Below, piece by piece: positions 304 to 36,087 of a stretch of 40,212 nt of DNA; the stretch's first letter is position 1; every line of letters begins with the position of its first letter. The notes beneath the pieces are model-generated. The model made no database searches. It saw nothing but the letters and a program-made list of their open reading frames with translations, and was not told the origin of the DNA. The DNA comes from a virus, in IMG/VR virus record IMGVR_UViG_3300006947_000029, positions 1-40,212 of that record, one strand, 5' to 3'. A program made the translations under genes and the position numbers.

Positions 304-957
304 TTATTTTCTTAAAAACTCAACCACTTTATTATATTCATTTTCGTTAAAAATTAAATCAAATCGTTCACATAAAATATTAAAGTAATCTTCATCAAGT
401 AAATCATCAATTGAACCTATAACGAAATCATCTGAATTCATATGTTCTCTATAATTTTCTAAGGTACTACTTAACAATGTCTCAACTTCTTCTTCAGTAT
501 ATAACTCACTAATTAGTTTTTTTGTTTTACCAACTCTAAAATTCCACGAAGTCTCCATAAATCTTACTGAGTCTTTGTTTAACACGACTAAATGCTTTCC
601 TTTAAAATAGTTTCGAGATTCGTCTAAATTACTATGAGTAAGATACAAAAGATGTTGTCCATCTTGGCATTTATCATATGATAATATTGGCTTTTCTGGC
701 AGACCACTACGTCGAGCATAATCTAATACAGGGGGGATTGTAGTTGAGTCAGAAAATCGCCTATCAAAATGAAACTTATTTAATTCTGAATTTAATATAC
801 TATCACACGGCAACCACGGATGTTCACCATTATCTTTATGATTATACCATAAAACATTATCACACGTTGCAATTAATCTACCAATTTGATGACCTTTTGA
901 CGCCATATTAACATTAATGACGATTATAGGATTGCGATTACTATTCTCCATAGTCAT
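304..957 (-). CDS. Hypothetical protein, faintly sulfotransferase-like
   Basis: This 217-residue protein starts at ATG 957; a second ATG lies two codons later. No clear ribosome binding site precedes it. After residue 10 comes a beta-strand-like IIVINVN followed by SKGHQIGRLIA, which resembles a degenerate nucleotide or PAPS-binding loop. The C-terminal end (VIGSIDDLLDEDYFNILCERF) resembles the DL-containing C-terminal segment of sulfotransferase-like proteins. The canonical catalytic residues cannot be assigned, so the function is open. It is the first gene after the two tRNA genes. Confidence 0.6.
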   Translation of the reverse strand: MTMENSNRNPIIVINVNMASKGHQIGRLIATCDNVLWYNHKDNGEHPWLPCDSILNSELNKFHFDRRFSDSTTIPPVLDYARRSGLPEKPILSYDKCQDGQHLLYLTHSNLDESRNYFKGKHLVVLNKDSVRFMETSWNFRVGKTKKLISELYTEEEVETLLSSTLENYREHMNSDDFVIGSIDDLLDEDYFNILCERFDLIFNENEYNKVVEFLRK

Positions 958-2698: not shown

Positions 2699-3112
2699 TT
2701 AAAGATCGCCGTCTTTACGATTTTCGCTATAAAATACATTAAAGTCACCACCTGGGTAACGTGATTCTAATTTATGTACGTTTTCTGCTATAACATCATT
2801 AGGATCTAAGCCTAACGCTCTGCAACAAGTGATCCAATACCATATAATATCACCTAATTCTCGTTTTGCATGAAATATTGTTGCTTCTTCCAAAGGTTTG
2901 CCTTGAAATATACATTTCTTAACAATTTCACTAAATTCACCACCTTCAGATGCCATACCAATGGATCCTGTCAATAATGCTGCCATATTAACACCTGTCT
3001 CTGCTTCAAGTTTTTCTAACTGCGCTCTTAAGGCATCCGTATTGTTGCTTTCGTTACTTGTAACTTGTTTTACAAAATCCATGTAGGCATTTAAATCTAT
3101 TTGTTTAGACAT
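2699..3112 (-). CDS. mazG: MazG-like nucleotide pyrophosphohydrolase
   Basis: The 137-residue protein carries the all-alpha NTP-pyrophosphatase metal-binding pattern. Glu56, Glu59 and Glu62 lie in MASEGGEFSEI, followed after about 25 residues by E85-x2-D88 in RELGDIIWYW. The family hydrolyses nucleoside triphosphates to monophosphates and pyrophosphate; in marine myoviruses single-domain versions are common and have been linked to host nucleotide or ppGpp control. Its start overlaps the methyltransferase gene by 8 nt and follows AAGGAGT, so translation is probably coupled. Single-domain size fits phage MazG rather than the two-domain bacterial enzyme. Confidence 0.85.
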   Translation of the reverse strand: MSKQIDLNAYMDFVKQVTSNESNNTDALRAQLEKLEAETGVNMAALLTGSIGMASEGGEFSEIVKKCIFQGKPLEEATIFHAKRELGDIIWYWITCCRALGLDPNDVIAENVHKLESRYPGGDFNVFYSENRKDGDL

Positions 3113-3755
3113 CTTGACTCCTTTTATATGCTCTAATTCTATGATAATGTTGATGGCCGTTATGTTGTAAACTTGGATATGGTTCTGACTCGTAAATCAT
3201 AGTTAAGTCTGTTTGTGCGTTCCATCCACCTTCTTCAAGATATGAATAATCTGATCCTAATAATGCATGGCCATGCGCCTTAAAACTTGGATTGGTCATA
3301 ACAAACACTCCATTTTCTTTTAAACTGTCTGCAATATTTTTACTTGGTTTTGCACTCATATGTCCTGGAGCAAAACATCCACTCGCAGTAATTACATCAT
3401 ATTTTTTTGGTAATGGGTCTGCACAGATATCATTATAAGCAGTATCTCGATAAAACTCTTTAGCAACTTGTAAAAACTCAACTGTAATATCATATCCGTC
3501 CACATTATCATAAAATGCTGGTCGTAAATGTTTACCAACTAAGCCTGTGCCACACGCAATATCACCAACTTCAACATCTGGATTAAAATTATGAATAACA
3601 TATGCGGCGGTTTTAACTGGTGCCAACCATCTGCCTTGATTTATATCTTCTTCATAAGTTGGCCATGTACCAAATATCTCTTTTTGGCCGTCGGTATTAT
3701 CAAATCCATTATCGTAACTATCTCTTAATTTTTTACTCATCCATTCAACTGGCAT
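3105..3755 (-). CDS. Class I SAM-dependent methyltransferase
   Basis: I place the start at ATG 3755 (MPVEWMSKK), preceded by AGGAG overlapping the stop of the upstream gene. A longer frame up to 3830 would overlap that gene by 68 nt and lacks a better site. The product is 216 residues. Motif I, DIACGTGLVG, is at 65-74, followed by an acidic strand-end residue in VDGYDITVEFL and a motif IV-like stretch YDVITASGCF. This is a typical Rossmann methyltransferase core without a recognisable target domain. The substrate is unknown: small molecule, protein or DNA are all possible, but no NPPY or DPPY motif marks an adenine DNA methylase. Confidence 0.8.
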   Translation of the reverse strand: MPVEWMSKKLRDSYDNGFDNTDGQKEIFGTWPTYEEDINQGRWLAPVKTAAYVIHNFNPDVEVGDIACGTGLVGKHLRPAFYDNVDGYDITVEFLQVAKEFYRDTAYNDICADPLPKKYDVITASGCFAPGHMSAKPSKNIADSLKENGVFVMTNPSFKAHGHALLGSDYSYLEEGGWNAQTDLTMIYESEPYPSLQHNGHQHYHRIRAYKRSQDV

Positions 3756-3762
3756 AATACTC

Positions 3763-4056
3763 CTATGAAGTGACGATTTGTGATGTATTTGCGACATATA
3801 AATCTGCCGCAGCCTTTTCTGTTTTAACAATACAAATTATATTATTACTTAGTATTGTAAATTTTGAATTTTGATCAACAGTAAACATAAATGGTGCTAA
3901 TCCCATTTTACCATCTGGTGTTGGAATAAGCATTAATGGTTTTTTAACTACTGTGACTGTTTCATCTTGTTTATCAAATCGTGCGACCATTTCCTCGCCA
4001 CTTGATAATTTGATACTGACTGTATCGCCAGATTCGTATTGTGTTTCTATAATCAT
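3763..4056 (-). CDS. Small Sm-like conserved phage protein
   Basis: This 97-residue protein is a mostly beta-strand sequence starting MIIETQYESGDTVSIKLSSGEEMVARF. The alternation of strands and the short GEE turn resemble an Sm/Lsm-type barrel, and I recall similar short proteins in marine T4-like phages, but the assignment is weak. ATG 4056 follows AAGGAG at good spacing, and the gene is the first after promoter 4085-4113. It could bind RNA if the Sm-like reading is right. The methyltransferase and mazG follow directly. Confidence 0.65.
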   Translation of the reverse strand: MIIETQYESGDTVSIKLSSGEEMVARFDKQDETVTVVKKPLMLIPTPDGKMGLAPFMFTVDQNSKFTILSNNIICIVKTEKAAADLYVANTSQIVTS

Positions 4057-8256: not shown

Positions 8257-8943
8257 TCATGCTAAACCATAATATTTTTCTAATCGTTTGGCCCATGCAA
8301 ACTCCCATAATGGAAATTCATCTTTTTCGCACTCAAATAATTGCCATTGACAGTCTCCACTGCACATAAAAATAGCAATGCTCTCAATGTTTGTTTCATA
8401 TAACTCATTATGCGCCAATGCGTATGCGGCACCTTGCATAAAGTAATCATCAATCCATTCACGTTTCTTTGGTTTATTTGTCTGCTTGAAATCCATTATG
8501 GTTTGTTTTCCTTTCCATACTCCTACAAGATCTGTGGTTCCGGCATATAATCCTGGATGGCATAACATAACTTCTGTCCCCCAAATTTCATCAATATGGG
8601 GCTCTATGTTTTCAATAATGACATTGGCCATGGCTTTCGCTTCTCGGTGTACTATATTATTACCAGGATTATACTCGGTATTACCCAACACATATTGTTC
8701 TAAGATATTATGCATAATCGTACCTCTGCCGGCCGCAGTTTTGGTGATACGAGCTGCTTCTTCTGTACCAACTCTTTTTCTCCAATTTGCTAACGCAAGG
8801 CGTTTTTCTACTGGTTGAGTGGCACCCAATATGGTAGTTACACTAGGTACTGGTTCGCCAAAAGGATTCTCATATAGCCTTTTCCCATTGACTGAAGTAC
8901 GTGTAAGTTCTGTATATTTGTAGGGTGAATGTATTTCAAGCAT
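8257..8943 (-). CDS. PD-(D/E)XK nuclease, Cas4/RecB-like
   Basis: The 228-residue protein has the full motif series of the RecB/Cas4 nuclease group: H78 in GTIMHNILE, E124 in WGTEVML, D138 in GTTDLVG, D151-x-K153 in MDFKQTNK, and Q170 in QGAAYA. An N-terminal segment PSVTTILGATQ is typical of phage members. No iron-sulfur cysteine cluster is seen, so it is not a standard Cas4. It probably trims DNA ends during recombination or degrades host DNA. ATG 8943 starts only 6 nt after the -10 box of its promoter, with no ribosome site, so the mRNA may be leaderless. Confidence 0.87.
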   Translation of the reverse strand: MLEIHSPYKYTELTRTSVNGKRLYENPFGEPVPSVTTILGATQPVEKRLALANWRKRVGTEEAARITKTAAGRGTIMHNILEQYVLGNTEYNPGNNIVHREAKAMANVIIENIEPHIDEIWGTEVMLCHPGLYAGTTDLVGVWKGKQTIMDFKQTNKPKKREWIDDYFMQGAAYALAHNELYETNIESIAIFMCSGDCQWQLFECEKDEFPLWEFAWAKRLEKYYGLA

Positions 8944-8949
8944 ACTATT

Positions 8950-8978
8950 AGTATACTTGATTTTTACTTAATTGTCAA
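8950..8978 (-). promoter_or_regulatory. Sigma70-type early promoter for the Cas4/RecB-like nuclease
   Basis: TTGACA (8978-8973), 17 bp, TATACT (8955-8950) on the minus strand, placed inside the 3' end of the SGNH hydrolase gene. The initiation codon at 8943 lies 6 nt past the -10, at the expected transcription start. Confidence 0.88.
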
Positions 8979-9657
8979 GACTAGATCTAACTTTTTCTGT
9001 AAAGATATATTTTTCAAAAACAACAATATTACCTTCTTTATTCCAATGACTATCTTTATCACTAATATGATATTGGATGTTATGAGGATAACCTGGGCCA
9101 TCGATTAATTTTCTAATTTTATTAAAATCCAAAAAATGAAAATACTCAAAGTCATATAATTTTTCAGCATTCTCATACCATAATTGTTCATAGATATCAC
9201 GTGTTGAGCTCATTGCTGACATTACATTATATTCATTTGTAAAATTTTGCAAACTTTTAGGTACTTGTGTTGGATCTTTATACCCTTGCACTGACAAGTT
9301 AGGCGTGCCTCTACTTGCCCATATATGAGAAAAACCAGGCAGGAGATATTTATAATTATCCATTGGGGTATCAGATGAATGCCAATCAAAATTCGACAAC
9401 TCTTCATGACCAGGAGAATCAATTAATAAACTACTTCGTGAACTATATGTATTTCCTAAAAATACAACAGATGCTCCCCAAATTTTGGCATCTAATAACG
9501 CCCATTGAAAATAATCTGGTCCTCTGCCTCCTAGACCATAATTTCTATAAGTGTGTTGGGGGTATTTTTCTGCTAATAGATAAGACCAATGATTTGTGTT
9601 TTGGCCGGTTTGGGAATAACTTGTGACTGAATCGCCAATAAAGGCTACTTTTTTCAT
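8968..9657 (-). CDS. SGNH/GDSL-family hydrolase
   Basis: The 229-residue protein starts MKKVAFIGDSVTSY, with the nucleophile Ser10 in GDS. Block II is likely GLGGRG at 41-46, the Asn of block III may be GNT at 68-70, and D202-S-H204 in DSHWNKEG gives the Asp and His. The DSHW form resembles the AlgX/AlgJ branch that acts on O-acetyl groups of polysaccharides. A role in deacetylating surface glycans or modifying virion decorations is inference. It lies 4 nt after a virion-like gene and has no signal peptide, so it may be a tail-associated or cytoplasmic enzyme. Confidence 0.8.
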   Translation of the reverse strand: MKKVAFIGDSVTSYSQTGQNTNHWSYLLAEKYPQHTYRNYGLGGRGPDYFQWALLDAKIWGASVVFLGNTYSSRSSLLIDSPGHEELSNFDWHSSDTPMDNYKYLLPGFSHIWASRGTPNLSVQGYKDPTQVPKSLQNFTNEYNVMSAMSSTRDIYEQLWYENAEKLYDFEYFHFLDFNKIRKLIDGPGYPHNIQYHISDKDSHWNKEGNIVVFEKYIFTEKVRSSLDN

Positions 9658-10605: not shown

Positions 10606-11406
10606 TTACTTCTCGGTGCTTAGTACTGCGAAGGCTTTTTTCAACAATTCTTTGCTTACTTTGCCTTGATCTTGCGCCTCTTTAACCATGCGAATTGCTT
10701 GAACATATGCATCTTCTTTAAATTCACGTCCAGTTTCATCTGTTGTAATATCTGCCGCATCTGCGCCTGCAAACTCATCGTCTACAACATCAATATCCGC
10801 ATCCATATCCATATCCATTGCAGGTTCAACTGCCATGTCCATATCCATATCTGTTTCAATTGTTCCGCCTTGCGCTACTAATACTGCGTTATTTACTTGA
10901 TCATTTGCTGACTTAACAGAGTCAAGAGCTGCGCCAATTGCCGCTTCGGCACTAGCCGAAAATGCTTCTGCTTCTGCCATACCAACTTCTTCTTTCATTG
11001 CGTTAGTAATTGACATCAAATCTTCTACTTGCATACTGGCTAAATTTTCAGCCATTTTTTGTAAGTCATCTGCCATTTGCTTCGCTGCAAGTAATACCTC
11101 AGCCGAATCTAAATCAACATCTGATTCTTTAATAGTTTTATTTTCTTTCACTGTATTATCCTTTTGTTTTTTTGCTTCTTTAATAGCCATCTTTAAACCT
11201 TCTGTTACTAACAATAATTTTTGATAGTATCTATCAGTTACTTCAACTCCGTTTTCTTCAAGTTTAGTAATCAGTTTTTTTGTAGACGATTGTACGTTCT
11301 CTAATTTCTCAACTTCTGCATTGAAATTAAAATCTAATTTAAACACTTCTGATAGTGCTTTTTTAATTTTTACAAGTTTTCTTTCTTGTAATTGATCTAA
11401 TACCAT
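10606..11406 (-). CDS. Acidic coiled-coil protein with Asp-Met repeats
   Basis: The 266-residue protein has a charged helical first half (about 1-150, rich in Lys/Glu with heptad-like Leu spacing), an Ala-rich stretch, and then a low-complexity Asp-Met tract (DMDMDMAVEPAMDMDMD) at about 190-208. A final helical segment follows. Acidic helical proteins like this are typical of prohead cores or internal scaffolds, but that role is inferred only. A late-like GCATAAATAC and an AGGA site precede ATG 11406. Confidence 0.65.
   Translation of the reverse strand: MVLDQLQERKLVKIKKALSEVFKLDFNFNAEVEKLENVQSSTKKLITKLEENGVEVTDRYYQKLLLVTEGLKMAIKEAKKQKDNTVKENKTIKESDVDLDSAEVLLAAKQMADDLQKMAENLASMQVEDLMSITNAMKEEVGMAEAEAFSASAEAAIGAALDSVKSANDQVNNAVLVAQGGTIETDMDMDMAVEPAMDMDMDADIDVVDDEFAGADAADITTDETGREFKEDAYVQAIRMVKEAQDQGKVSKELLKKAFAVLSTEK
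10788..10852 (-). repeat. Hexanucleotide repeat encoding Asp-Met
   Basis: The plus strand repeats the unit atccat with small breaks, in two blocks separated by about 20 bases. On the minus strand it encodes alternating Asp and Met codons in the acidic protein. Short tandem units like this are prone to slippage, so the copy number may vary between relatives. Confidence 0.7.
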
Positions 11407-11464: not shown

Positions 11465-12025
11465 TTACACTTTATTTAATGTATTTATTAACTCGTGAAC
11501 CTCGTCCCACGAATTATAACAATCAAACTGAAACTGAAGCCTAGGTTCCGATGACTTGCTAACTGAATGCCATTTACTTCCTGAATTAAGAATTATTATA
11601 GTTGGGGTATACTCATATACATCCAATATATCAGACTCTTTAGATTCATAGAAATTTATTGATTGTGGGAATGTTAGTGGGAATGTTATACATGTTGGGC
11701 GGCTGGCATCAATATGACGTGCTAATCCTTGCTCTTTCATATTACTCCTTGATAAACAAAATCCATTTAATCCAGTGCCATTGTCGTGTGGATTATAGTC
11801 CATTCTTATGTCAAAATCTTTAAAAACATTAAGATAATGTTGTACTATTGGCTCCTCTAATAACATAGGATCATAGCATACATCCAGGGGAGTGGCTGTG
11901 CCATATGCACTTGTGTAATTATCAAATTCATAATTGTCTATAAAATCTAAAAAGTCTCCAGGATTATATTCTATTTGTGGGAGTTCTATTAAGAACTCAC
12001 TACTTTGCCATCTGTTCTTGTGCAT
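11465..12025 (-). CDS. 2OG-Fe(II) oxygenase-like protein
   Basis: The 186-residue protein shows the iron-ligand pattern H104-x-D106 in RHIDASRP, a distal H153 in SKWHSVS, and R162 in EPRLQFQF for 2-oxoglutarate. This fits the 2OG-Fe(II) dioxygenase or aspartyl-hydroxylase-like fold. Its start lies inside the 3' end of the radical SAM gene (37-nt overlap), and it follows that gene in the same unit, so it may act on the product of the radical SAM pathway. A TATAAATA lies 15 nt upstream. The substrate is unknown. Confidence 0.72.
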   Translation of the reverse strand: MHKNRWQSSEFLIELPQIEYNPGDFLDFIDNYEFDNYTSAYGTATPLDVCYDPMLLEEPIVQHYLNVFKDFDIRMDYNPHDNGTGLNGFCLSRSNMKEQGLARHIDASRPTCITFPLTFPQSINFYESKESDILDVYEYTPTIIILNSGSKWHSVSKSSEPRLQFQFDCYNSWDEVHELINTLNKV

Positions 12026-13923
12026 GCCATTTTCTTCCTATATTTATATTCTTCATCAATTTCACTACTTCCTTGGACCAAATTATCCCTCGTTGATGTC
12101 GCTCTGCCCATACCTGTTTCAGTAAACTCAATTTCTACTTCTTCATCTACATCATTTACAAAGTCATAGTCAAATTTTACTCTCCAAGGATAACTTACAT
12201 CTCCTCTAAACATACTGGCATCATTAAATTCTATTAAATCAGTAGGAATATCAAATTGAGAAGCAAACACGTTTATATCTTCTTTAACACGGTCTCTATC
12301 ATCTATGCCCAAAGAATCTCTAAATCCTATGTTTTTTAACGCAAGTGTATATTCATATCTATCAGTTCTAAATAATAAATGGTCTTTATAATATTGATTT
12401 AATACACCATCACTATTTGCTATATATTCATGAAACTTATTATAAAAACCAAGAAGGTCTATAATATCATGTGTTTCACAATAATTCGCAAGTTCTCGTG
12501 TAAAGTTAAACTCGTGTCCTAATCTAGTACACCACGTCCATGCAAACATTTCTCGCATTTCATCTCTGTTCATCCATTTAGTTGATACAACTTGTTCCAT
12601 ATATTCTCTAACTGGACGATATTTAGGGTTGGCAACACCAGGAAATTGAACCAATTCATGTTCTAATTCAAATTTCTTTCTACTTTCTTCTGAGGCTAAT
12701 TCGGCTCCAGGTAATAATGCAACTGCATATATGTCACAAGATACGCCAGACCTAACAACATCTAGATAACCATCTTTCCAAGTGTGGACTGTTTCTCCTG
12801 GATTACCTAACATCATTTCTGTACTATACGGCAGATCCATTTCTTTACATGTATCGATATAAAATAAGAAATCTTTTGAAACATCCATTGTTGCACGTTT
12901 AACTAATTCTAAAGATGGTTCGTGTCTACTCTGTATGCTCAAACATAAAGACTGCAATACATCTGCATCATACAATTTTTTTGCCATCTTAATAAATTCT
13001 GATTTATGATTTTTTGCCCAGTTAACAAAGAAACTTTTTGGATATCCATGTTTCTTCTTACTTGCAATAACCATATCAACAATTGTGTCATCTCGTTCTT
13101 TAAATAATCCAAAGTTATTATCAACGTAATAGAAACTTCCCAATTTATTCTCAACAAGCCAATCTAATTCTTCTTGTACTCTGCTTAATTCTGTTTTATA
13201 AACTTTATTATGGTTTAACGCACCTAAGTCACAAAATGTACACGCATAAGGACACCCTCTAGTTGTTTCCATTATTGGTATATGATTCGGTTGTACATTA
13301 GGAAATAATCCTAATAAGTATGGTGAAGGAATTAATGATAAATCTTTTATTCTATCTTTTCCAACTGCGGTGTAGTCTAAATTCCAAGTCCATCCACTAT
13401 CAAGATTAACAGATACATTAGGTATCATTGACATTTCTTCTTTAGATGAGCATTGTAAGATTTTAGTAAAACGTTTCTCGCCTTCGTAATATATAGTAAC
13501 ATCAACATAATCGTGTTTATCCCACCAATCTCCGTGTTCAGCGCCATTATGATCTGCCGGTGACATTTTAGTTGTGACTGAACCTGGAGGGTCTAGTGGT
13601 AAATGTGGACCGCCATATACTATCAAACAATCAGGATATTTTTCTTTAACTTTCTTTGCTACAACATCAGTGTAGTTACAATTCCAAACATAACACCCAA
13701 ATGCAAATATTTTAGGATTAACAAGACTAGCAACAACCTCATCTGGTTGTACTTTTTCAAAAAATATTTCTTTACAGTTATATTTTTCTTTAATGTCATC
13801 ATGCGTCTGTGCGTAACTCCATACTGAAGCGGCTGCATACGGCATAAACATTAAATTGCCAGGCATTATAGACAAACTAAATTGTGCCAGATATATGTTA
13901 TCTTTTGTGGTCTCTTTAATCAA
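11989..13923 (-). CDS. B12-binding-type radical SAM enzyme (copy A)
   Basis: The 644-residue frame starts with TTG at 13923, overlapping its twin by 8 nt; no better start aligns with the twin. Residues about 8-110 form a Rossmann-like cobalamin-binding-type domain ending YGGPHLP, without a clear DxHxxG motif. The radical SAM cluster is C224-x3-C228-x2-C231 in RGCPYACTFC. A helical C-terminal region (about 450-644) is shared with the twin. Compared with the twin, this copy has an insertion at about 110-132. Such enzymes perform methylations, cyclisations or rearrangements on unactivated carbons. The substrate is unknown. Confidence 0.88.
   Translation of the reverse strand: MIKETTKDNIYLAQFSLSIMPGNLMFMPYAAASVWSYAQTHDDIKEKYNCKEIFFEKVQPDEVVASLVNPKIFAFGCYVWNCNYTDVVAKKVKEKYPDCLIVYGGPHLPLDPPGSVTTKMSPADHNGAEHGDWWDKHDYVDVTIYYEGEKRFTKILQCSSKEEMSMIPNVSVNLDSGWTWNLDYTAVGKDRIKDLSLIPSPYLLGLFPNVQPNHIPIMETTRGCPYACTFCDLGALNHNKVYKTELSRVQEELDWLVENKLGSFYYVDNNFGLFKERDDTIVDMVIASKKKHGYPKSFFVNWAKNHKSEFIKMAKKLYDADVLQSLCLSIQSRHEPSLELVKRATMDVSKDFLFYIDTCKEMDLPYSTEMMLGNPGETVHTWKDGYLDVVRSGVSCDIYAVALLPGAELASEESRKKFELEHELVQFPGVANPKYRPVREYMEQVVSTKWMNRDEMREMFAWTWCTRLGHEFNFTRELANYCETHDIIDLLGFYNKFHEYIANSDGVLNQYYKDHLLFRTDRYEYTLALKNIGFRDSLGIDDRDRVKEDINVFASQFDIPTDLIEFNDASMFRGDVSYPWRVKFDYDFVNDVDEEVEIEFTETGMGRATSTRDNLVQGSSEIDEEYKYRKKMACTRTDGKVVSS
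12041..12048 (-). promoter_or_regulatory. Late-type TATAAATA upstream of the 2OG oxygenase
   Basis: An exact TATAAATA on the minus strand, inside the 3' end of the radical SAM gene and 15 nt before ATG 12025. It could add late transcription of the oxygenase gene. Being within a coding region, it may also be chance. Confidence 0.35.
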
Positions 13924-15778
13924 CTACTTTTCCATCTGTTCTGGTACATACCATTTTCTGTTTATATTTAAAATCGTCACTAACAGCGTTCGAACCCTGC
14001 ATTATATTATCTCTTAAAGATGTCGCTCTGCCCATACCTGTTTCAGTAAACTCAATTTCTACTTCTTCATCTACATCATTTACAAAGTCATAATTAAACT
14101 TTATTCTCCATGGATACCGCACATCTCCTCTAAACATACTGGCATCATTGTATTCTAGTAATCCATCAGGAATGTCAAATTGAGAAGAAAAAGATTTAAT
14201 ATCTTCTTTAACAAGGGCTCTATCTCGCAGACTTAAAGAATCTTTAAATGCTATATATTTTAACGCAAGTGTATATTCATATCTATCAGTTCTAAATAAA
14301 CAAACTTTCTTGTAATAATCGTTTAATATTCCATTGCTGTTTTCTATGTATTCGCAAAACTTATCGTAGAAACCTGGCAAGTCTATAATATTATGAGTTT
14401 CACAATAATTCGCAAGTTCTCGTGTAAAATTAAACTCATGTCCGAGCCTAGTACACCACGTCCATTTAACTGTATCTCGCATTTCATCTCTGTTCATCCA
14501 TTTAGTTGATACAATTTGTTCCATATATTCTTTAACTGGACGAAATTTAGGATTAGCAACTCCAGGAAAATAGACAAATTCTGTTTCTAATTCAAATTTC
14601 TTTCTACTTTCTTCTGATGCTAATTCGGATGCAGGTAATACTGCGACCGCATATATATCACATGCTACTTCTTTGCGAACAACTTCTATATATCCTTCTT
14701 TCCAACTTTTAACTGTCTCGCCTGGGTTACCTATTATTAACTCTGTACTATAAGGTAAATCTATATCTTTACATTTATCAATATAAAAATCAAGGTCATT
14801 AATGCCAAATCCTCCACGCTTAACGATTGAAAGCACTTCAGTATTTCTAGTTTGTAAACTCAAGCATAGAGATTGCAATATATCAGCATCATATAACTTT
14901 TTTGCCATATTAATAAAATCAGATTTGTGATTTTTTGCCCAATTAATAAAAAAACTCTTTGGATATCCATGCTTCTTCTTACTTGCTATAATCATATCAA
15001 CAATAGTGTTATCTCTGTCTTTGAATAATCCAAAGTTATTATCAACAATAAAATAAGTTCCCATCTTATTCTCAACAAGCCAATCAAGGTCATCTTGTAC
15101 TCTGCTTAATTCTGTTTTATAAACTTTATTATGATTAACTGCACCTAAATCACAAAATGTGCAGGCATATGGACAACCTCTTGTAGTTTCCATTATTGGT
15201 ATGAGATTTGGCGTTGGATTAGGAAATAAACCTAATCGATATGGCGATGGTATTATTGATAGGTCGCTTATGCGGTCTTTTCCAACTGACTTAGTATCTA
15301 AGTTAAATGTCCAGTCACCATCAAAGTTAACACTTACATTAGGTATCATTGACATTTCTTCTTTGGTTTTAGATTGAAGAACTTTAGTGAACTTTTTTTC
15401 ACCTTCATAATGTATGACAACATCTACATATGGATGTTCGCTCCACCACTTATCATTAGCAGTTATGGGTATATGAGGTCCACCATAAATTATTAAACAT
15501 TTGGGATATTTCTCTTTAACTTTCTGTACTAAGACATCAGTATAATTGGCATTTACAATATAACAACCGAACGCAAATACTTTTGGATTATCAAGACTAG
15601 CAACAACCTCATCTGGATCTATTGTCTCAAAGAATATTTCCTTTAATTCATATTTTTCTTTGATGTCGGTGTGTGTTTGTGCGTAACTCCATACTGAAGC
15701 GACTGCATATGGCATAAACATCTGCTTACCTGGCTCTAATACACAACTAAATTGTGCTAGATATATATTATGTTTCAT
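13916..15778 (-). CDS. B12-binding-type radical SAM enzyme (copy B)
   Basis: I choose ATG 15778 (MKHNIYLAQFS), which aligns with the start of copy A. The frame is open to 15820, but that start would overlap the ligase gene by 53 nt. The 620-residue product matches copy A over nearly its whole length. It has the cobalamin-type N-terminal domain ending YGGPHIP and the cluster C202-x3-C206-x2-C209 (GCPYACTFC). Its start overlaps the stop of the AMP-ligase gene by 11 nt, which argues for coupled expression. Two active-looking paralogs side by side suggest two successive or alternative reactions. Confidence 0.88.
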   Translation of the reverse strand: MKHNIYLAQFSCVLEPGKQMFMPYAVASVWSYAQTHTDIKEKYELKEIFFETIDPDEVVASLDNPKVFAFGCYIVNANYTDVLVQKVKEKYPKCLIIYGGPHIPITANDKWWSEHPYVDVVIHYEGEKKFTKVLQSKTKEEMSMIPNVSVNFDGDWTFNLDTKSVGKDRISDLSIIPSPYRLGLFPNPTPNLIPIMETTRGCPYACTFCDLGAVNHNKVYKTELSRVQDDLDWLVENKMGTYFIVDNNFGLFKDRDNTIVDMIIASKKKHGYPKSFFINWAKNHKSDFINMAKKLYDADILQSLCLSLQTRNTEVLSIVKRGGFGINDLDFYIDKCKDIDLPYSTELIIGNPGETVKSWKEGYIEVVRKEVACDIYAVAVLPASELASEESRKKFELETEFVYFPGVANPKFRPVKEYMEQIVSTKWMNRDEMRDTVKWTWCTRLGHEFNFTRELANYCETHNIIDLPGFYDKFCEYIENSNGILNDYYKKVCLFRTDRYEYTLALKYIAFKDSLSLRDRALVKEDIKSFSSQFDIPDGLLEYNDASMFRGDVRYPWRIKFNYDFVNDVDEEVEIEFTETGMGRATSLRDNIMQGSNAVSDDFKYKQKMVCTRTDGKVVD

Positions 15779-17186
15779 ACTCGTCAACAATCCATTCACT
15801 ATTTTCTTGTAGAGTTTCATTCATAAAGAATAAATTTATCTTTGGTGCTTGAAACTTATCACCTTTGCTTTGTAATAATTTTGGCATTGTGTCTTTTACT
15901 CTGGTAAATTTAATTGGTACTTGGTAGCCTTCGACTTTATTTTTTGTATAATTATAAAAGTGCTCTGGACTAACATTTCCAGAATAAACACATCCTGGCA
16001 TTTCACCTCGTTCATCATCAACATTTATTTTATACAAATAACAATCGTTAACTTTTTCATGCTTTCCGATATATTCTGCTATCTCATACGGAAAAATATT
16101 TGCTCCACCTCTACTAATAATTACTTCATTGGCACGGCCAATAATGTTATAATTTCCTTCTGGTGTGATTTCGGCTAAATCATCTGAATCCCACCATTCA
16201 CCGTTTGGCGTATTTAATCCACGTACTTCAACTGTACCTTTATCACCAATACGAACTTCGCCGCCTGACAATATATGCCAATCAACTTGCTTACCAACAT
16301 GTCTAATATCTTCACCTTTCTTAGCAAAGTTAACCATGTACGTGCCAACTGAGCCTTCGCCATATACATTCATATATTGGTCTGGGTTATAAAATTTCTG
16401 CCATGCTTCTTGTTGTTCACTAGTTACAATTCCCCCAGTAAACTCTACCGTATTTATTTTAAATGAGCCTTTATTTGCATCCATTACCTTTTGTAACGAT
16501 AATGGGAACCCAATTATCCATGTAGGTTTTTGGTATTCACAAGCACTATCATATTCACTAGGATCTTGGATAACGTGTACCCATCCACCCATCATTAATG
16601 TATGATATGTAAGGTCTTGTGACCACGGAATGTACGGTTGCATAATATTTAAAAATCTGTTAGTTTCTGGTAATGCAAAGTCTGGGTTACCTTTAAGTCT
16701 ATATGATATTGCCTGGCGCCCGTCGCCACCCCAATTACTTTCATCTAATTCGTACACCCCACTATAACATGACGGAATGCCATACTTATTGGTTGTGCCT
16801 GATGAGTACTGACACATATACTCTTTTTCTTGTGTAGTGGACTTTTCAAAATGTATGTGATCAATTGATTTTAATGTACCATCTTTGTTTAATCTAACTA
16901 CTGCGTTGGCATTGTTCTTTTTTAATCTTGCATCTTCTGTGTATTCAGATGCTTTCCATGGAAGTGTTGTACCACTACCATCAAATGAGGCTGCCACCAT
17001 CCATATCCAAGTTTCAACTCTATTTGTTCCTTGAATAGCAATTCTGTGATGTTTAGTATAGCCGTTGTCAATTAGTATTTGTTTACAATCGAGAACTTCG
17101 TTTACAAATTCATTGTAAGTAAGTAATCTATGTTTATCTGAAATTGCTGGCCTGTTGTTTCTAGGAAGCAGGTAAAAAGGACGCAT
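15768..17186 (-). CDS. AMP-forming acyl/aryl-CoA ligase-like enzyme (ANL superfamily)
   Basis: The 472-residue protein has the ordered ANL motifs. The phosphate-binding YSSGTTNKYG is at 127-136, YGEGS at 275-279, the ribose-binding SDDLAEI at 334-340, and the hinge GRANEVIISRGGANIFPYEI at about 350-369. A C-terminal PKLLQSKGDK holds the likely catalytic lysine. Such enzymes activate a carboxylic acid with ATP and transfer it to CoA, a carrier protein or an amine. It is shorter than typical members (about 500-600), mostly at the N-terminus. No carrier protein is visible nearby. It starts one base after the upstream gene and leads the radical SAM pair. Confidence 0.88.
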   Translation of the reverse strand: MRPFYLLPRNNRPAISDKHRLLTYNEFVNEVLDCKQILIDNGYTKHHRIAIQGTNRVETWIWMVAASFDGSGTTLPWKASEYTEDARLKKNNANAVVRLNKDGTLKSIDHIHFEKSTTQEKEYMCQYSSGTTNKYGIPSCYSGVYELDESNWGGDGRQAISYRLKGNPDFALPETNRFLNIMQPYIPWSQDLTYHTLMMGGWVHVIQDPSEYDSACEYQKPTWIIGFPLSLQKVMDANKGSFKINTVEFTGGIVTSEQQEAWQKFYNPDQYMNVYGEGSVGTYMVNFAKKGEDIRHVGKQVDWHILSGGEVRIGDKGTVEVRGLNTPNGEWWDSDDLAEITPEGNYNIIGRANEVIISRGGANIFPYEIAEYIGKHEKVNDCYLYKINVDDERGEMPGCVYSGNVSPEHFYNYTKNKVEGYQVPIKFTRVKDTMPKLLQSKGDKFQAPKINLFFMNETLQENSEWIVDEYET

Positions 17187-17187
17187 A

Positions 17188-17616
17188 TTAAAACTTGTCC
17201 TTAATCGTTCCTTTAATAGTTTTCATTTTGCGAATCGCTTCACCATGCTTTGCTGCTGCGACGTTTATTTGGAATGAATCGTTGCTTTCGTTCATTCTTT
17301 GTTTATGATTGGCTGCTTCGTTTAAATAATTATTATATTGCTCATCAAGTTTGACAATTTCAGCATTATCACTTTCAATAGAATTTTTCTTCATTAGATG
17401 ATTTTTAATAATTGCAGTTGCACTCTCAAACAATGCTAAGTGACCATACAACACTTTGCTATTTTCAACAACTGTGTAATATGTTTTCTTGTATTGTCCA
17501 ATTGTTTCTTTTTCCAATATTACATTAAACTTTCCTATACCAAATATATTTTCATTGGTTAATTGGTCTAATGCTGACTGTATTAAGTTCTTTGCTTTTC
17601 TTTTTTCGTTTGACAT
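17188..17616 (-). CDS. Conserved phage hypothetical protein
   Basis: A 142-residue Lys/Asn-rich, mostly helical protein (MSNEKRKAKNLIQSALDQL...). A central beta-type stretch (about 28-58, KFNVILEKE...YYTVVENSK) is flanked by long charged helices. No motif is recognised. Its ATG overlaps the upstream stop by one base (TAATG), and the AMP-ligase follows after one base. It therefore joins the late-looking small genes to the biosynthetic cassette in one transcript. It may be a virion or assembly protein; function unknown. Confidence 0.62.
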   Translation of the reverse strand: MSNEKRKAKNLIQSALDQLTNENIFGIGKFNVILEKETIGQYKKTYYTVVENSKVLYGHLALFESATAIIKNHLMKKNSIESDNAEIVKLDEQYNNYLNEAANHKQRMNESNDSFQINVAAAKHGEAIRKMKTIKGTIKDKF

Positions 17617-17825
17617 TATAGGCTACCTATGATTCGTGAAAAATATTTTTTACCATCTTTCATTATTCGTTTTGCTACACCTTTACTTACTAAACCTTGA
17701 GCAATATACTGATCTTTTTCAGATAAATCTTTACTACAATGCTCTTCAGCAAGTGTTTCCCAAAGTTTATGTTCTTGGTTTGTTATGAATACGCCAATAC
17801 CACCAGGACATTCTATTAATTTCAT
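17616..17825 (-). CDS. Small conserved hypothetical protein
   Basis: This 69-residue protein starts MKLIECPGGIGVFITNQEHKLWETL and ends with a basic YFSRIIGSL. The central KDQYIAQGLVSKGVAKRIMKDGKKYF looks like a small winged helix-turn-helix, where the last strand pair follows a Gly. A clear GGAG precedes ATG 17825. It overlaps the next gene by one base. Function unknown. Confidence 0.62.
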   Translation of the reverse strand: MKLIECPGGIGVFITNQEHKLWETLAEEHCSKDLSEKDQYIAQGLVSKGVAKRIMKDGKKYFSRIIGSL

Positions 17826-17827
17826 TT

Positions 17828-18301
17828 CTATCTCCTACTAAGAAGTTGCTTTAATCTATTTATCTCTGCTGAATTTTGAGATGCTTGATTTGAATTTGAT
17901 TGTCTGTGTTGGTCATCTGGATCTTTTGATTGTCTAGATCCTGTTGATTGCTTGTTTGAACCAGCAACTGTTCGAGTTGTGCCGCCGCCTTTTTGTACTG
18001 AATTGGCTTTATTTTGTCTATTTTGTTGGGCAAACCCCGTCTCGCCTTTGCGATCAGTTGCGGCGCTTTGACTATGATGTGTTGCTGCTGTTCCATAACC
18101 ACTTTCGCCTATATTTAAATCTACCATCTTTGAAAACTCTTCATCATCTTCATTTTTAATTATATTGATAAGTTTCATTGTATCGCTAAAATTTAATTCT
18201 GAAAACTGTTGTTTTAGTTGATCAGCAGTTATCTCAATACCAAATTTTACATTGGCATAATCTATAACTGAATCAATTAGTGAATTATTTTGTATTTCCA
18301 T
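17828..18301 (-). CDS. Protein with a disordered Gln/Ser/Asn-rich tail
   Basis: The first 70 residues are a folded helical region (MEIQNNSLIDSVIDYANVKFGIEI...). Residues about 75-145 are low complexity, rich in Gln, Ser, Asn, Gly and Thr. A short helix NRLKQLLSRR closes the protein. Such tails are common in virion-internal or scaffold-like proteins. The ATG overlaps the upstream stop by one base, so it is coupled to the basic protein. No function is assigned. Confidence 0.62.
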   Translation of the reverse strand: MEIQNNSLIDSVIDYANVKFGIEITADQLKQQFSELNFSDTMKLINIIKNEDDEEFSKMVDLNIGESGYGTAATHHSQSAATDRKGETGFAQQNRQNKANSVQKGGGTTRTVAGSNKQSTGSRQSKDPDDQHRQSNSNQASQNSAEINRLKQLLSRR

Positions 18302-18591
18302 TATCTTCTATTCTTATTTAGTGATCTAACAATTTTACTTGCTGGATTTGTTCTTTTTACTCGTTGTGCTTTTTTCATCATACGAGCGCCTTTGGCTGCT
18401 CTTGTTCTACGCATAACATAACGCTTCTTTAAATCAAGTGGAGCATTACATTGCTTTGGACTTCCTACAATCCTGCCTTTACGTTTACCAACTAGGCAAC
18501 GAAACTTTTTAACTACTTTATTTCCTCTTTTTGCAAAAATTACTTTTGCTTCGGATATAACAGTACTATATGATTCGTTTAAAAATTTCAT
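18301..18591 (-). CDS. Small highly basic protein
   Basis: The 96-residue protein is very rich in Lys and Arg (VKKFRCLVGKRKGRIVG and RRTRAAKGARMMKKAQRVKR), with two Cys at about 32 and 48. It resembles basic nucleic-acid-binding proteins, and I recall similar conserved proteins in marine T4-like phages. DNA packing or binding to the capsid interior is a reasonable guess but not demonstrated. It begins directly after the holin-like gene. Confidence 0.66.
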   Translation of the reverse strand: MKFLNESYSTVISEAKVIFAKRGNKVVKKFRCLVGKRKGRIVGSPKQCNAPLDLKKRYVMRRTRAAKGARMMKKAQRVKRTNPASKIVRSLNKNRR

Positions 18592-18891
18592 TTATCCACC
18601 AACTGCACTTAATACTGCAGGTGCTATGCCCCCGCCTAAATTTAGTAACAACAATACTATTGTTGATAGCAAACCAGCAACAACTGTTGCCGCTGCACCA
18701 AATATCAACTTATTTCCTGATAATTTATCTGCAGTTTGCTGATCAGACATTTCTTTAATTACGTCAACTAAATCGTCAACCTTTGTTTCTAATTTATCTA
18801 ATTTATCTTCTAACACTCGATACCTCGCCGCGCACAAATCTACATGTGCTTCAAGATTTTCACTCTCAAGTCTGGATTGTTTTATTGCCAT
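18592..18891 (-). CDS. XhlA/holin-like membrane protein
   Basis: The 99-residue protein has a coiled coil at about 16-50 (YRVLEDKLDKLETKVDDLVDVI) and one hydrophobic segment at about 64-88 (LIFGAAATVVAGLLSTIVLLLLNLG), followed by a short Gly/Ala tail. Coiled coil plus a C-terminal membrane helix is the layout of XhlA/hemolysin-associated holin-like proteins. It may act at the inner membrane during lysis. It follows an exact late-type TATAAATA at 18967-18974 with a leader of about 70 nt containing a hairpin. No T4 gpt holin similarity is seen. Confidence 0.65.
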   Translation of the reverse strand: MAIKQSRLESENLEAHVDLCAARYRVLEDKLDKLETKVDDLVDVIKEMSDQQTADKLSGNKLIFGAAATVVAGLLSTIVLLLLNLGGGIAPAVLSAVGG

Positions 18892-18938
18892 TTAATTCTT
18901 CAATTTTTTAGCAGCATCTTAATTGAGCTGATTTACAT

Positions 18939-18960
18939 AAAGACATATCATTATGTCCTT
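18939..18960 (-). promoter_or_regulatory. Hairpin in the leader of the holin-like gene
   Basis: On the minus strand AAGGACAT and ATGTCTTT form an 8-bp stem (one G-U pair) around a 6-nt loop. It begins a few nucleotides after the expected start site of the late promoter. There is no U-run afterwards, so it is more likely a 5' stabiliser or translation control element than a terminator. Confidence 0.4.
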
Positions 18961-18966
18961 GTATAC

Positions 18967-18974
18967 TATTTATA
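18967..18974 (-). promoter_or_regulatory. Late-type promoter (TATAAATA) for the holin-like gene
   Basis: Exact TATAAATA on the minus strand, followed by GTATAC, in the 87-bp gap just after the stop of gene 18979-19404. It matches the T4 late -10 element and precedes a lysis-type gene. Confidence 0.6.
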
Positions 18975-18978
18975 CGTC

Positions 18979-19404
18979 TTAGCCATCTGATGTCACATAT
19001 GTTTTGGCAAAATACATATTTTTTGTATTTCCATAACAAATCATTGCGTTATCATCACTCTCAATTGTTTCATTTAATCTAGTTGCGACAGGAACGTTGT
19101 TAACATCATGTAATGCATAATAAAACTCGTCTTCATAAAGTTTCCATGCTTCTATATCACTAGAAAATGTTACTTCCCAAACAGTATGTGTTCCAGCGTA
19201 TGCATCTCCAAAATCATAGTCGCTTAAATCTTGCTTTGGTAAGACCTGCACATGGACATCTAATAACTGTGTCCTCATTGCTAATGTTTGTGTTAAACTG
19301 TTTAAATTTTGTGATTGTTTGTACGGATGACTGTACCCTTTTGGGTTATTGTCGCCTGAATCAGTGATATCAATTAAAGTGAAGCCAACATAAGTGTTGA
19401 GCAT
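18979..19404 (-). CDS. Conserved phage hypothetical protein
   Basis: A 141-residue protein starting MLNTYVGFTLIDITDSGDNNPKG with a mixed alpha/beta profile. It contains HTVWEVTFSSDIEAWKLYEDEFYYALHDVNNVPVATRLNE, suggesting a compact domain with a beta sheet and one helix. It follows the upstream gene after 2 nt and precedes the late promoter for the holin-like gene. Small proteins of this type are common next to virion genes in marine myoviruses; no role can be assigned. Confidence 0.62.
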   Translation of the reverse strand: MLNTYVGFTLIDITDSGDNNPKGYSHPYKQSQNLNSLTQTLAMRTQLLDVHVQVLPKQDLSDYDFGDAYAGTHTVWEVTFSSDIEAWKLYEDEFYYALHDVNNVPVATRLNETIESDDNAMICYGNTKNMYFAKTYVTSDG

Positions 19405-19406
19405 GG

Positions 19407-20096
19407 TTAAAGTGGTGCTGATTTACCAATTGCATAGCCACCTGCAAACGCACCAACTTTTCGTGCAATTGTTTTACCAATACTACCTTTCTTAGCACCA
19501 CTGATGCCTAGGCCTTTATCTCTCACATAACGATTAAACGTTGGTGCTAAATCACTACGTTTAGCATTTAATTTAAAATGCCTTGTAATCTGTGACGCTG
19601 CCAACTGTTGCTGTGTTGTATTAAGTCTATCCCAATCTTGTACTAATCTTCTTGCTGCTCTTAATTTAGGATCTTGAATTGCAAGATCTTTTTCTAATTT
19701 AAATAAAAATGTTTTTGCTTGTTGTTGTGTTAAATTTCCTGATCTCATTTGTTTAACAAACCTTGTAATTTTTGATCCATCAATGTTTACTCTATTCATT
19801 AATAGTTTATCTTTTTGACTTGTTAAAAAATCTGGATTCTGTAAACTATAAATTGTTTGATATAAATCTGTTCCACCAGGACTTGGTTTATTAAACGAAC
19901 CATATTGTGCTGTTCTGGCTGCGTAAGCCGTTGCCTGCGGTGCATAATCATAATCCTTGCTCATTACGAACAGGCTTAATGCACTTACAAATAAGTGATC
20001 AGTTAAGACACGAGCGCCTTCACGTGAAATTTGGTCGCGTGTCTTAAACATACGAGCCTCTCCAAGTGTTTGTATAAATTCTAATTTTTCACTCAT
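19407..20096 (-). CDS. Hypothetical protein, probably virion-associated
   Basis: The 229-residue protein is basic and helical, with Gln-rich patches (NLTQQQAKTF, NTTQQQLAASQ) and a Gly-rich hydrophobic end (RKVGAFAGGYAIGKSAPL) that might insert in a membrane. There is no signal peptide or enzyme motif. It overlaps the upstream DUF6356-like gene by 4 nt (ATGA) and follows a GGAGAAAGAAG stretch. Function unknown. Confidence 0.6.
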   Translation of the reverse strand: MSEKLEFIQTLGEARMFKTRDQISREGARVLTDHLFVSALSLFVMSKDYDYAPQATAYAARTAQYGSFNKPSPGGTDLYQTIYSLQNPDFLTSQKDKLLMNRVNIDGSKITRFVKQMRSGNLTQQQAKTFLFKLEKDLAIQDPKLRAARRLVQDWDRLNTTQQQLAASQITRHFKLNAKRSDLAPTFNRYVRDKGLGISGAKKGSIGKTIARKVGAFAGGYAIGKSAPL

Positions 20097-33333: not shown

Positions 33334-33927
33334 TTATTTTTGGACACAATATTTAATTAATATTGAGTTTCTATCTGTTGTATCTTCTTCTATTGGTTTT
33401 ACTCGATGTATACTATATTCACTAGACTTAAATATCCATGCTCTATTAGGAATAAACTCTATCTGTGTGGAATCATCTCCTTCCTCACCTAACCATGTTC
33501 CAGTATGTTCCAAATCATTGTTTGTTGGACAATATATTTGTAACGAAACCATTTCTTTATTCCATGATTTAATATCGTTATGTTGCCCTCTCCAAAAGCC
33601 TTTTTTATCTTTATGTATAGTGTATGCGATCTTATTTATAGAATATTGTAAATCACATACATCTTTTAAATACTGCAACATAGCCTCACTAGACATCTTT
33701 TGCATAAAGCCTTCCCAAAAACTAGAATTTTGAGTTGTTTTTGAAATATCAACTATATGTTGTTGATCTGGATAACACGGCTCGTCAGGTAAATGTAATG
33801 GCTCACTAGTATCTTCATGTATTACATTTACCAATTTACGATAATAATCTTCATCAAAAAAATCATCAATTATAATATGCGGAAATGGTGTTATTGAGTC
33901 TTTTCTGAAAGAATCTATATTATTCAT
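33334..33927 (-). CDS. 2OG-Fe(II) oxygenase
   Basis: I choose ATG 33927 (MNNIDSFRKDSITPFPHIIIDDFF), overlapping the uvsX stop by 8 nt; the frame is open to 33969. The 197-residue product has the typical start PFPHIIIDDFF, the ligands H116-x-D118 in GQHNDIKSW, H174 in YSIHRV, and R186 in DRNSILIKY for 2-oxoglutarate. The fold is that of prolyl-hydroxylase-like enzymes common in marine phages. Its position in the uvsX operon suggests a role at early or middle time; a protein or nucleic acid substrate cannot be distinguished. Confidence 0.86.
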   Translation of the reverse strand: MNNIDSFRKDSITPFPHIIIDDFFDEDYYRKLVNVIHEDTSEPLHLPDEPCYPDQQHIVDISKTTQNSSFWEGFMQKMSSEAMLQYLKDVCDLQYSINKIAYTIHKDKKGFWRGQHNDIKSWNKEMVSLQIYCPTNNDLEHTGTWLGEEGDDSTQIEFIPNRAWIFKSSEYSIHRVKPIEEDTTDRNSILIKYCVQK

Positions 33928-35023
33928 TCGTTGCATCAATAAATTCTTCTGTGTCAACTTCTTCAACAATTAAATCATTTACACTTTCTGGTTGACTATC
34001 AAATTCATCCATTACTACATCTAATGCACCATCTTTATTTGCATTCCATGGCTTACGAAACATTTTAATTATTTCGCCTGTTACAGGACTAATGTATTCT
34101 AAACTGTTTCCACTTTTCTTTAAAACTCCTTTTGCTTCAAAAAAGTCTGTTAATCCACTATATGGACTCATTCCTGTTTCATATGGAATTTCTACTTGTA
34201 CACTTTCAAATGGCTTTGCATAACGTGTTTTCATTACTTTACACGCTGCTCTAATACCATGTACTTGGCTAGTTTTATTTCCATCAGCATCTACTTTAAG
34301 TTTTAGTTTACGCATTGCAATAACAATACTACTTGCATAGATAAAGCCTTGCCCGCCTGAGATTCTATCATCTGGGTCAAACATATCTTGTGATGCATAC
34401 GTGTGATTTGTAGCCATTAAGCCTACATTGTATTGTCCAAACATATTAACTGTATTACGAACTAATGAAGTAAGTGCTTTAGGCTTACGACCCAAATCAC
34501 CTTTCATGTCACCCTTTTCAAATTGTGCTACGTCTGTTGGTGTTAATAGCATACCTAACGAGTCAACTACAAATAATACTTTAGGACGATCTGCTTCATC
34601 TTTATCAAAATATTCTGCTTTATAGTCTTTCATAAAGTCACTAATTGTTTTAGCAACGTCATCTATCATGCTCATATTTAATTTAAGTAACTTATCTTCA
34701 CTTGTATCTACCTCAAGTGCGTGTAGCCACTTTTCATCAAGTGCGTTTTCACTATCAATTAAAATAACGAAAATACCTTGCTCTTGTGCTGCCTTTACAA
34801 TGTTACCTGCAGCGATATATGATTTACCTGAACCGGATTCTCCTGCTAATACTGTTACTTTTCCAAGAGGTACACCTTTATTAAAATCATCACTGATTAA
34901 TTTATTAAGGGTATAATTACCTGTTGAGATCCATGTATCTGGATCATTAAACCCAACACTCAAGCCGGGTACCGCTTTAGTTATACTTTTACGGAATTTG
35001 CTTACATCAAATGGTCTTGCCAT
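33920..35023 (-). CDS. uvsX: UvsX RecA-like recombinase
   Basis: The 367-residue protein has Walker A GESGSGKS (61-68), Walker B VLFVVDSLGML, and the RecA-type loop with NHTYASQDMFDPDDRISGGQGF. T4 UvsX forms filaments on single-stranded DNA for strand exchange and recombination-dependent replication. GGAG precedes ATG 35023. The gene follows gp32 after 62 nt, in which there is a GUAA-capped hairpin, and it has no own promoter in view, so it is probably read from the gp32 promoter. Confidence 0.95.
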   Translation of the reverse strand: MARPFDVSKFRKSITKAVPGLSVGFNDPDTWISTGNYTLNKLISDDFNKGVPLGKVTVLAGESGSGKSYIAAGNIVKAAQEQGIFVILIDSENALDEKWLHALEVDTSEDKLLKLNMSMIDDVAKTISDFMKDYKAEYFDKDEADRPKVLFVVDSLGMLLTPTDVAQFEKGDMKGDLGRKPKALTSLVRNTVNMFGQYNVGLMATNHTYASQDMFDPDDRISGGQGFIYASSIVIAMRKLKLKVDADGNKTSQVHGIRAACKVMKTRYAKPFESVQVEIPYETGMSPYSGLTDFFEAKGVLKKSGNSLEYISPVTGEIIKMFRKPWNANKDGALDVVMDEFDSQPESVNDLIVEEVDTEEFIDATNE

Positions 35024-35085: not shown

Positions 35086-36087
35086 TTACTCGCTGTCTTT
35101 ACGTTCACGGATCATTGCAAGAATGTCTTGCGCATTAGCCGGTTTGCTCTCTGGAGCTGCCGCAGCAACTGTTTCCATTTCTGGTGCAGGTGCTGTTACA
35201 GGTGCTGCCACTGGTGCTGTTGCCTCTGGTGTTGCCACAATAGGCGGTACAACCGTACTATCTGTTGTAGTACGAGGACCAGTATTAGGTGCATCTACAC
35301 CCCAAGGGCGGTAAAAACCAGCAAAACGTTCTGGATCATACAATTGACCGTCAACTGATGCTTCAAACATTTGATGAATTGCATTCAAATGTGCTGCATC
35401 TGGTTTCTTAGGTAAAAAGTCATTTAAGTTATATAAGCCATGAGTTCCAATTGCATCACGTTCTTCTTGATTCAAACTACGCTCACGTCTTGCCCAATTA
35501 CTTGTTCCATAATCAGCATATTGACCTTTTTTACCTTTAGTAATTTTAAAGTCTGTGCCTTGCTCATAATCCGTTGGAATTTCTGGAAATTCTGGATCCA
35601 TGAGTGCCGCACTAATAATTTTATAAATTTGAGGTGATATAACAAAACGTCTAATTGGACTTTCTGGTGCGTTTTCTTCTGTCATCTCTGTTTGTGTTAC
35701 AAAACCTTGAAAGATGTATGAACGCTTTTTCCAATATTTACGTGCCATATCTTCCATTGAAGGATCTTTAAACCAAGGACGTATTTCCGCATGTACCGGA
35801 CATTGCTCTTTCCACATCTCAACACATGGTACTTGTACCAATACTGATTTGTTTTCATCTTGTCCTTTAACGCCAGGAAATTCTAACTTAATCATTTGGC
35901 GTTCTTTCCAAAAGTATGTGTTAGTTTCGTCTGCGTCTGGTAAAAAGCGAAGTGTTGCGCTTGTGTTTTCGTCGATTGACCAATGTGGAAATACTATATT
36001 GTCACCACCACCTGATCGTCTGTTGCCTCCGCTTTGCGCGGTTTCTTGCTCGAGCAATTTTGCTCGTATTTCTGCTAAAGTTGTCAT
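35086..36087 (-). CDS. gp32: Single-stranded DNA-binding protein gp32
   Basis: The 333-residue protein fits T4 gp32 in order. It has a basic N-terminal LAEIRAKL and NRRSGGG region for cooperativity, then an OB-fold core with aromatic and basic residues. A metal-site-like C-x8-C-x2-H sits in PCVEMWKEQCPVH. A Pro/Ala-rich linker leads to an acidic tail (ILAMIRERKDSE) for partner binding. It coats single-stranded DNA and recruits UvsX, UvsY, UvsW and the replisome. AGGAG precedes ATG 36087. The leader is about 100 nt, as in T4 where gp32 represses its own translation. Confidence 0.93.
   Translation of the reverse strand: MTTLAEIRAKLLEQETAQSGGNRRSGGGDNIVFPHWSIDENTSATLRFLPDADETNTYFWKERQMIKLEFPGVKGQDENKSVLVQVPCVEMWKEQCPVHAEIRPWFKDPSMEDMARKYWKKRSYIFQGFVTQTEMTEENAPESPIRRFVISPQIYKIISAALMDPEFPEIPTDYEQGTDFKITKGKKGQYADYGTSNWARRERSLNQEERDAIGTHGLYNLNDFLPKKPDAAHLNAIHQMFEASVDGQLYDPERFAGFYRPWGVDAPNTGPRTTTDSTVVPPIVATPEATAPVAAPVTAPAPEMETVAAAAPESKPANAQDILAMIRERKDSE

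Follow-up and report, generated by a model that had tools for sequence, protein, structure and literature searches.

The window analyzed here, the whole 40,212-nt stretch of a linear IMG/VR record with a G+C content of 34%, encodes four ORFs with overlapping ends on its minus strand between positions 11465 and 17186, at the coordinates first described. These genes, those bordering them and two more distant genes that may be associated with them are as follows (L003 and L004 denote two related marine viral contigs):

15768..17186, minus strand: ANL-superfamily (AMP-forming) ligase, 472 aa, full length, divergent (PF00501, hhalign, motifs)
13916..15820, minus strand: predicted class-1 cobalamin-dependent radical SAM methylase, copy a (TokK/CysS matches; KedN5 201.5 bits)
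11989..13923, minus strand: predicted class-1 cobalamin-dependent radical SAM methylase, copy b (KedN5 184.4 bits; 73% to copy a)
11465..12025, minus strand: putative 2OG-Fe(II) oxygenase, 186 aa (H104, D106, H153, R162 motif; no profile match)
10606..11406, minus strand: virion structural protein, downstream border (phrog_14154 E 2e-14; 31% to its ortholog PA5oct gp247)
17188..17616, minus strand: upstream border gene (weak tail-assembly-chaperone match, phrog_31021 E 0.0018)
3105..3830, minus strand: SAM-dependent methyltransferase, likely associated (Methyltransf_23 E 2.6e-7; 75% to the L003/L004 genes)
304..957, minus strand: 217-aa protein, possibly associated (60% to L003 8313-8948)

Re-derivation from the sequence recovered the four genes, their coordinates and the overlaps of 11, 8 and 37 nt that had been given in the sequence-only reading. 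The 11-nt overlap between the ligase and copy a holds with ATG 15778 as the probable start of copy a; the first ATG of that ORF, at 15820, would give an overlap of 53 nt. Copy b starts at a TTG codon (13923) and overlaps copy a by 8 nt and the oxygenase gene by 37 nt. The ligase ATG lies 1 nt past the stop of the upstream gene (17188-17616), and all cassette genes are under purifying selection (dN/dS 0.05-0.26).

The TerL protein of the window is 55% identical over its full length to the terminase of Pseudomonas phage PA5oct, with best matches exclusively from jumbo phages, while UvsX and NrdA are 62% and 56% identical to their PA5oct counterparts. The backbone genes are also colinear with those of PA5oct from the terminase to the ribonucleotide reductase, with UvsX, helicase, primase and exonuclease in between. 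These matches and the colinear backbone suggest that the window is a piece of a larger jumbo myovirus genome; by its sequence, we classify it as a fragment of a PA5oct-like marine jumbo myovirus. PA5oct itself is a 287-kb Pseudomonas phage of the Arenbergviridae, and the window displays the shared colinear backbone of that family, a placement read from a fragment only. The cassette is missing from the matching site in PA5oct, where gp248 adjoins gp247. As the window genes upstream of the cassette (17188-20096) have no match in PA5oct, the insertion has a blurred left border.

Certain other features of the window were observed. An SGNH/GDSL-like protein (8968-9657) lies amid the virion genes and is unmatched in the PA5oct stretch. 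Beside UvsX is another candidate 2OG-Fe(II) oxygenase (33334-33969; PF13640 E 7e-4, below cut-off), which carries the PHROG label endonuclease V. The T4-type late promoter TATAAATA occurs at 9 sites in the window, a number close to chance, with 9 of 9 on the coding strand. Rfam searches detected no cobalamin riboswitch in the window and the related records.

Predicted activities of the cassette proteins

The ligase matches the AMP-binding family PF00501 with 44.3 bits (gathering cut-off 29.9), and hhalign against a MenE/FadD/A-domain profile gave 97.5% over 407 columns. It displays the motifs YSSGTTNKYG (with the SSGTT and YG elements) and GRANEVI (with the GR hinge), the A7 Asp and the C-terminal A10 Lys; the Glu of the A5 motif (YGxTE) is missing and the P-loop is altered. 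Judged by its profile matches, the protein is a genuine full-length member of the ANL superfamily, although a divergent one. Exact-pattern and relative searches across 2.9 million viral contigs yielded only two further members, and in all three phages known to encode this ligase a methylase adjoins it in the same order. AlphaFold2 models of the ligase and the oxygenase reached a pLDDT of 29 and 40, respectively, too low for the models to be of use, these values arising because the underlying alignments were too shallow.

Both radical SAM proteins retain an intact CxxxCxxC [4Fe-4S] motif (ETTRGCPYACTFCDLGA). The best family for both is NCBIfam KedN5 (E 2.9e-54 and 1.8e-59), and their scores of, respectively, 184.4 bits (b) and 201.5 bits (a) fall short of the 700-bit cut-off for membership in it (NF033712). 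TokK and CysS are the sole solved-structure matches of these proteins, copy a recovering them with E 3.6e-56 (7kdx) and 4.1e-37 (9n1b), respectively. The alignment with TokK spans residues 34-494 and places an N-terminal Rossmann B12 domain ahead of the radical SAM domain; the match to PF02310 is weak and below cut-off. We predict both proteins to be class-1 cobalamin-dependent methylases. The PF00501 score and the TokK match bear out the ligase and radical SAM classes proposed in the sequence-only reading. With TokK and ThnK, the carbapenem C6 methylases, and CysS from cystobactamid biosynthesis, the cassette methylases share the domain order, the CxxxCxxC motif, the absence of a DxHxxG motif (by inspection), the Trp below the cobalt in copy b and significant similarity across the B12 and radical SAM domains. 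However, identity is only ~25-30%, the C-terminal substrate domain is unalignable and copy a has a Val in place of the Trp.

The two copies are arranged in tandem and are 73% identical, with a dN/dS of 0.23 between them, and of 0.15 (a) and 0.13 (b) against the L003 methylase. In the phylogenetic tree they pair with each other (SH-aLRT 96) and the single L003 copy is their sister (100), pointing to a duplication in the window lineage after its split from L003. The proteins described as twins are a recent duplication and not two steps distinct by design, the relatives being single-copy. In TokK (W76) and CysS (W75), a Trp lies on the lower face of the cobalt (PMC12846815, PMC13331322). This Trp is kept in copy b and both close relatives (L003 and L004), whereas copy a has a Val and is the sole exception among the matches listed, where 114 of the 115 aligned viral relatives keep the Trp. 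As TokK accepts Ala, Phe or His at the cobalt-facing position (PMC9692996), copy a is probably still active despite its substitution. Its role would probably be to use a related substrate or to add a further methyl group. The duplicated pair offers a natural experiment on what the residue beneath the cobalt does.

The putative oxygenase is characterized by the pattern H104-x-D106...H153...R162, i.e., the HxD...H facial triad with an Arg, which is invariant among six relatives. It has no matches in Pfam, NCBIfam or PDB, and hhalign against a set of phage 2OG-like proteins gave a non-significant 0.5%. Thus, of the earlier class assignment the residues stand, while profile and structure matches are absent; going by the invariant motif only, the product of 11465..12025 is a probable 2OG-Fe(II) oxygenase. 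Its relatives are found in other phages lacking the ligase or the methylase: in one such contig (L136), the relative is preceded by long structural-looking ORFs and followed by an epimerase gene (assigned by Pfam) and a radical SAM gene.

Related phages and the wider methylase family

L003 and L004 encode ligases 85-86% identical to that of the window, along with a single methylase. The 61.5-kb L003 contig carries, in this order, a methyltransferase, the ligase, one methylase, the oxygenase and a homolog of the window gene 304-957, while the end of the L004 contig falls inside the methylase gene; in both, the methyltransferase ortholog is directly upstream of the ligase. The 37-nt overlap between the methylase and oxygenase genes is identical in L003, in keeping with the single coupled unit that had been proposed from the overlaps, and the oxygenase gene there shares 4 nt with the 304-957 ortholog (8313-8948). 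The window retains the methyltransferase (3105-3830) and the 304-957 gene away from the cassette. The 304-957 protein has no family match, for which reason its candidacy as a sulfotransferase was dropped. NrdA (78%) and NrdB (71%) are less conserved between the window and these phages than the ligase; dN/dS against them is 0.055-0.07 for the ligase and 0.12-0.15 for the methylase.

The block of L003 and L004 has the nrdB, glutaredoxin and PAAR genes upstream of it. Thus, the placement among virion genes that had been noted for the cassette holds for the window but not for these phages, where the block is elsewhere on the backbone. The same order at different backbone positions suggests a unit that travels and persists together. 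The sequence-only reading had viewed scattered homologs as weakening the case for one pathway, and on this the picture is divided: the ligase and methylase adjoin in order in 3 of 3 ligase phages at two backbone positions, while the oxygenase occurs alone elsewhere and, in the wider methylase family, the ligase is missing from 48 of 50 records.

A motif scan recovered distant relatives of the methylase in at least ~115 distinct viral contigs (L010-L129 among them); among ~50,700 phage records, only one weak match was found. TokK/CysS-type methylases, previously known from antibiotic producers, are recurrent cargo of aquatic viral contigs. On the listed contigs, frequent neighbours are genes for an epimerase, glycosyltransferase, SGNH-like hydrolase, DegT aminotransferase, UDP-glucose dehydrogenase and amidinotransferase, with QueE/QueD/FolE and radical SAM/SPASM proteins as further neighbours, these names being assigned partly by eye and some by Pfam. 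Most of the relatives among the matches listed sit in sugar/glycan islands that lack a ligase. Their commonest neighbour is a 400-aa family (cluster 0). Despite the queuosine-type genes near methylase relatives in other phages, DNA hypermodification was set aside, since the cassette itself gives no pointer to it. An ANL match is present in 2 of the 50 methylase-bearing viral records, many of which are fragments. Beyond L003's own, 17 listed contigs bear homologs of the window backbone, with the methylase at varying positions. One of the two records with an ANL match, the PA5oct-like contig L057, has a methylase relative ~2.4 kb from an AMP-binding protein, which overlaps a hexapeptide transferase, in a locus flanked by UvsX and a homolog of window 35086-36087. 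It represents a looser form of the ligase/methylase combination, independent of the cassette. AMP-binding proteins with a seemingly partial ANL fold were also observed in phages with KedN5-like methylases, at L003 9732-10430 (232 aa) and L057 7477-8499 (341 aa).

In a plasmid cluster of Streptomyces sp. NBC_01546, a methylase gene is followed by an overlapping adenylation (A-domain) gene, with an adjoining, divergently transcribed GntD-type hydroxylase gene. It resembles the cassette in combining a methylase, an adenylation enzyme and a neighbouring hydroxylase, but it is bacterial, with other protein subfamilies, NRPS-type genes nearby and another hydroxylase family. Similarly, Sinorhizobium medicae has a related methylase beside an AMP-binding protein inside an NRPS-type cluster. 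Scans of bacterial genomes yielded no close relatives of the cassette proteins. The combination had been put forward as one without a described phage counterpart; with these clusters, it does have precedents in biology. For phages we found no description of TokK/CysS-type methylases or of this cassette in the open-access literature. Elsewhere, such an enzyme set is encountered in antibiotic-type clusters of bacteria, and its ligase-methylase-oxygenase version suggests that natural-product style chemistry is carried by phages.

A possible acyl-modification pathway and its alternatives

CysS consumes two SAM per methyl in a ping-pong mechanism and uses a pantetheinylated aromatic acid, having been demonstrated on pantetheinylated 3-methoxy-4-aminobenzoate (PMC12846815). 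Given this preference for pantetheine-linked substrates, thioesters made by the ligase would be a plausible feed for the methylases. The substrate of TokK likewise has a pantetheine arm, and the substrates of both enzymes fit with a thioester-making ligase. In the pathway we propose, the ANL ligase would adenylate a carboxylic or amino acid and load it onto a pantetheine thiol, either that of CoA or another. One or both methylases, with the class predicted from sequence, would then methylate an unactivated carbon of the thioester at two SAM per methyl, and the small oxygenase may, going by its motif, hydroxylate the methylated product. Finally, other phage or host enzymes would most probably attach the acyl group to a sugar or a protein, either on the virion or on the host surface, a step suggested by the neighbours of the methylase family in other phages. 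No carrier protein was found across ~115 kb of the three records; hence, the thioester partner would be CoA or a host carrier.

We tentatively favour, at somewhat short of an even chance, the cassette being mobile cargo of an aquatic jumbo myovirus that makes an acyl (or aminoacyl) block, C-methylated and possibly also hydroxylated, probably for glycan or virion decoration. It is possible, if rather doubtful, that it represents the first phage pathway in which acid activation is followed by cobalamin radical C-methylation on a CoA/pantetheine thioester, copy a having a new cobalt environment. The missing YGxTE Glu and the changed P-loop of the ligase speak against the pathway reading, as do the lack of a carrier protein in the three records, the lack of a profile match for the oxygenase and its occurrence apart from the other genes, the scarcity of ligases beside phage methylases of this family and the restriction of the combination to three genomes. 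The cassette is nonetheless real, well conserved and unusual, and is a variant of the auxiliary-metabolism islands of phages rather than a categorically new system.

The four genes might instead be unrelated functions gathered in an insertion-tolerant region, with overlaps that merely reflect a compact phage genome. The solitary oxygenase relatives, or those beside other genes, the lack of an ANL match in most methylase-bearing records (often fragments) and the KedN5-like methylases at many PA5oct-like backbone positions with differing partners are all consistent with this; yet the order and the 37-nt overlap are the same where the block sits elsewhere, and across the 2.9 million viral contigs the ligase is found only with the methylase, making such independent cargo unlikely, though not negligibly so. 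That the product is a diffusible metabolite, a signal or an inhibitor of rivals or host enzymes, as in the carbapenem and cystobactamid pathways, appears improbable: while TokK and CysS, the nearest characterized relatives, belong to natural-product biosynthesis and bacterial clusters have adenylation enzymes next to related methylases, the three records have no carrier protein match, condensation, ketosynthase and export genes were not noticed in the window or L003, and the phage relatives, among the matches listed, are mostly with epimerase, glycosyltransferase and aminotransferase genes.

Still less probable is direct modification of a neighbouring structural protein by radical SAM methylation and hydroxylation, with the ligase acting elsewhere. 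Virion genes on both sides of the window block and the structural-looking ORFs ahead of the L136 oxygenase relative would be in line with it, but the nrdB-side location in L003 and L004, the small-molecule substrates of the TokK/CysS relatives and a ligase left without explanation argue against it.

As regards the supply of cofactors for the favoured acyl-block pathway, the L003 phage encodes IscS (L132 14573-15787; 725 bits, cut-off 548), IscU (L132 15817-16227; 209.5 bits, cut-off 192.4), both above the NCBIfam cut-offs, and a ferredoxin-NADP reductase, which could feed iron-sulfur clusters and electrons to the radical SAM enzymes. T4-like marine tailed phages have been reported that carry IscU together with as many as 12 radical SAM genes, and the L003 phage is akin to these in having IscS, IscU and a number of radical SAM/SPASM genes; however, TokK/CysS-type methylases and an ANL ligase are not described in the passages of that account covered here (PMC5332604). 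Directly after iscU in this related phage (L132; G001, IMGVR_UViG_3300027833_001904), positions 16227-16588 encode an alphaproteobacterial-type permuted tmRNA, which hints at an alphaproteobacterial host for this phage.
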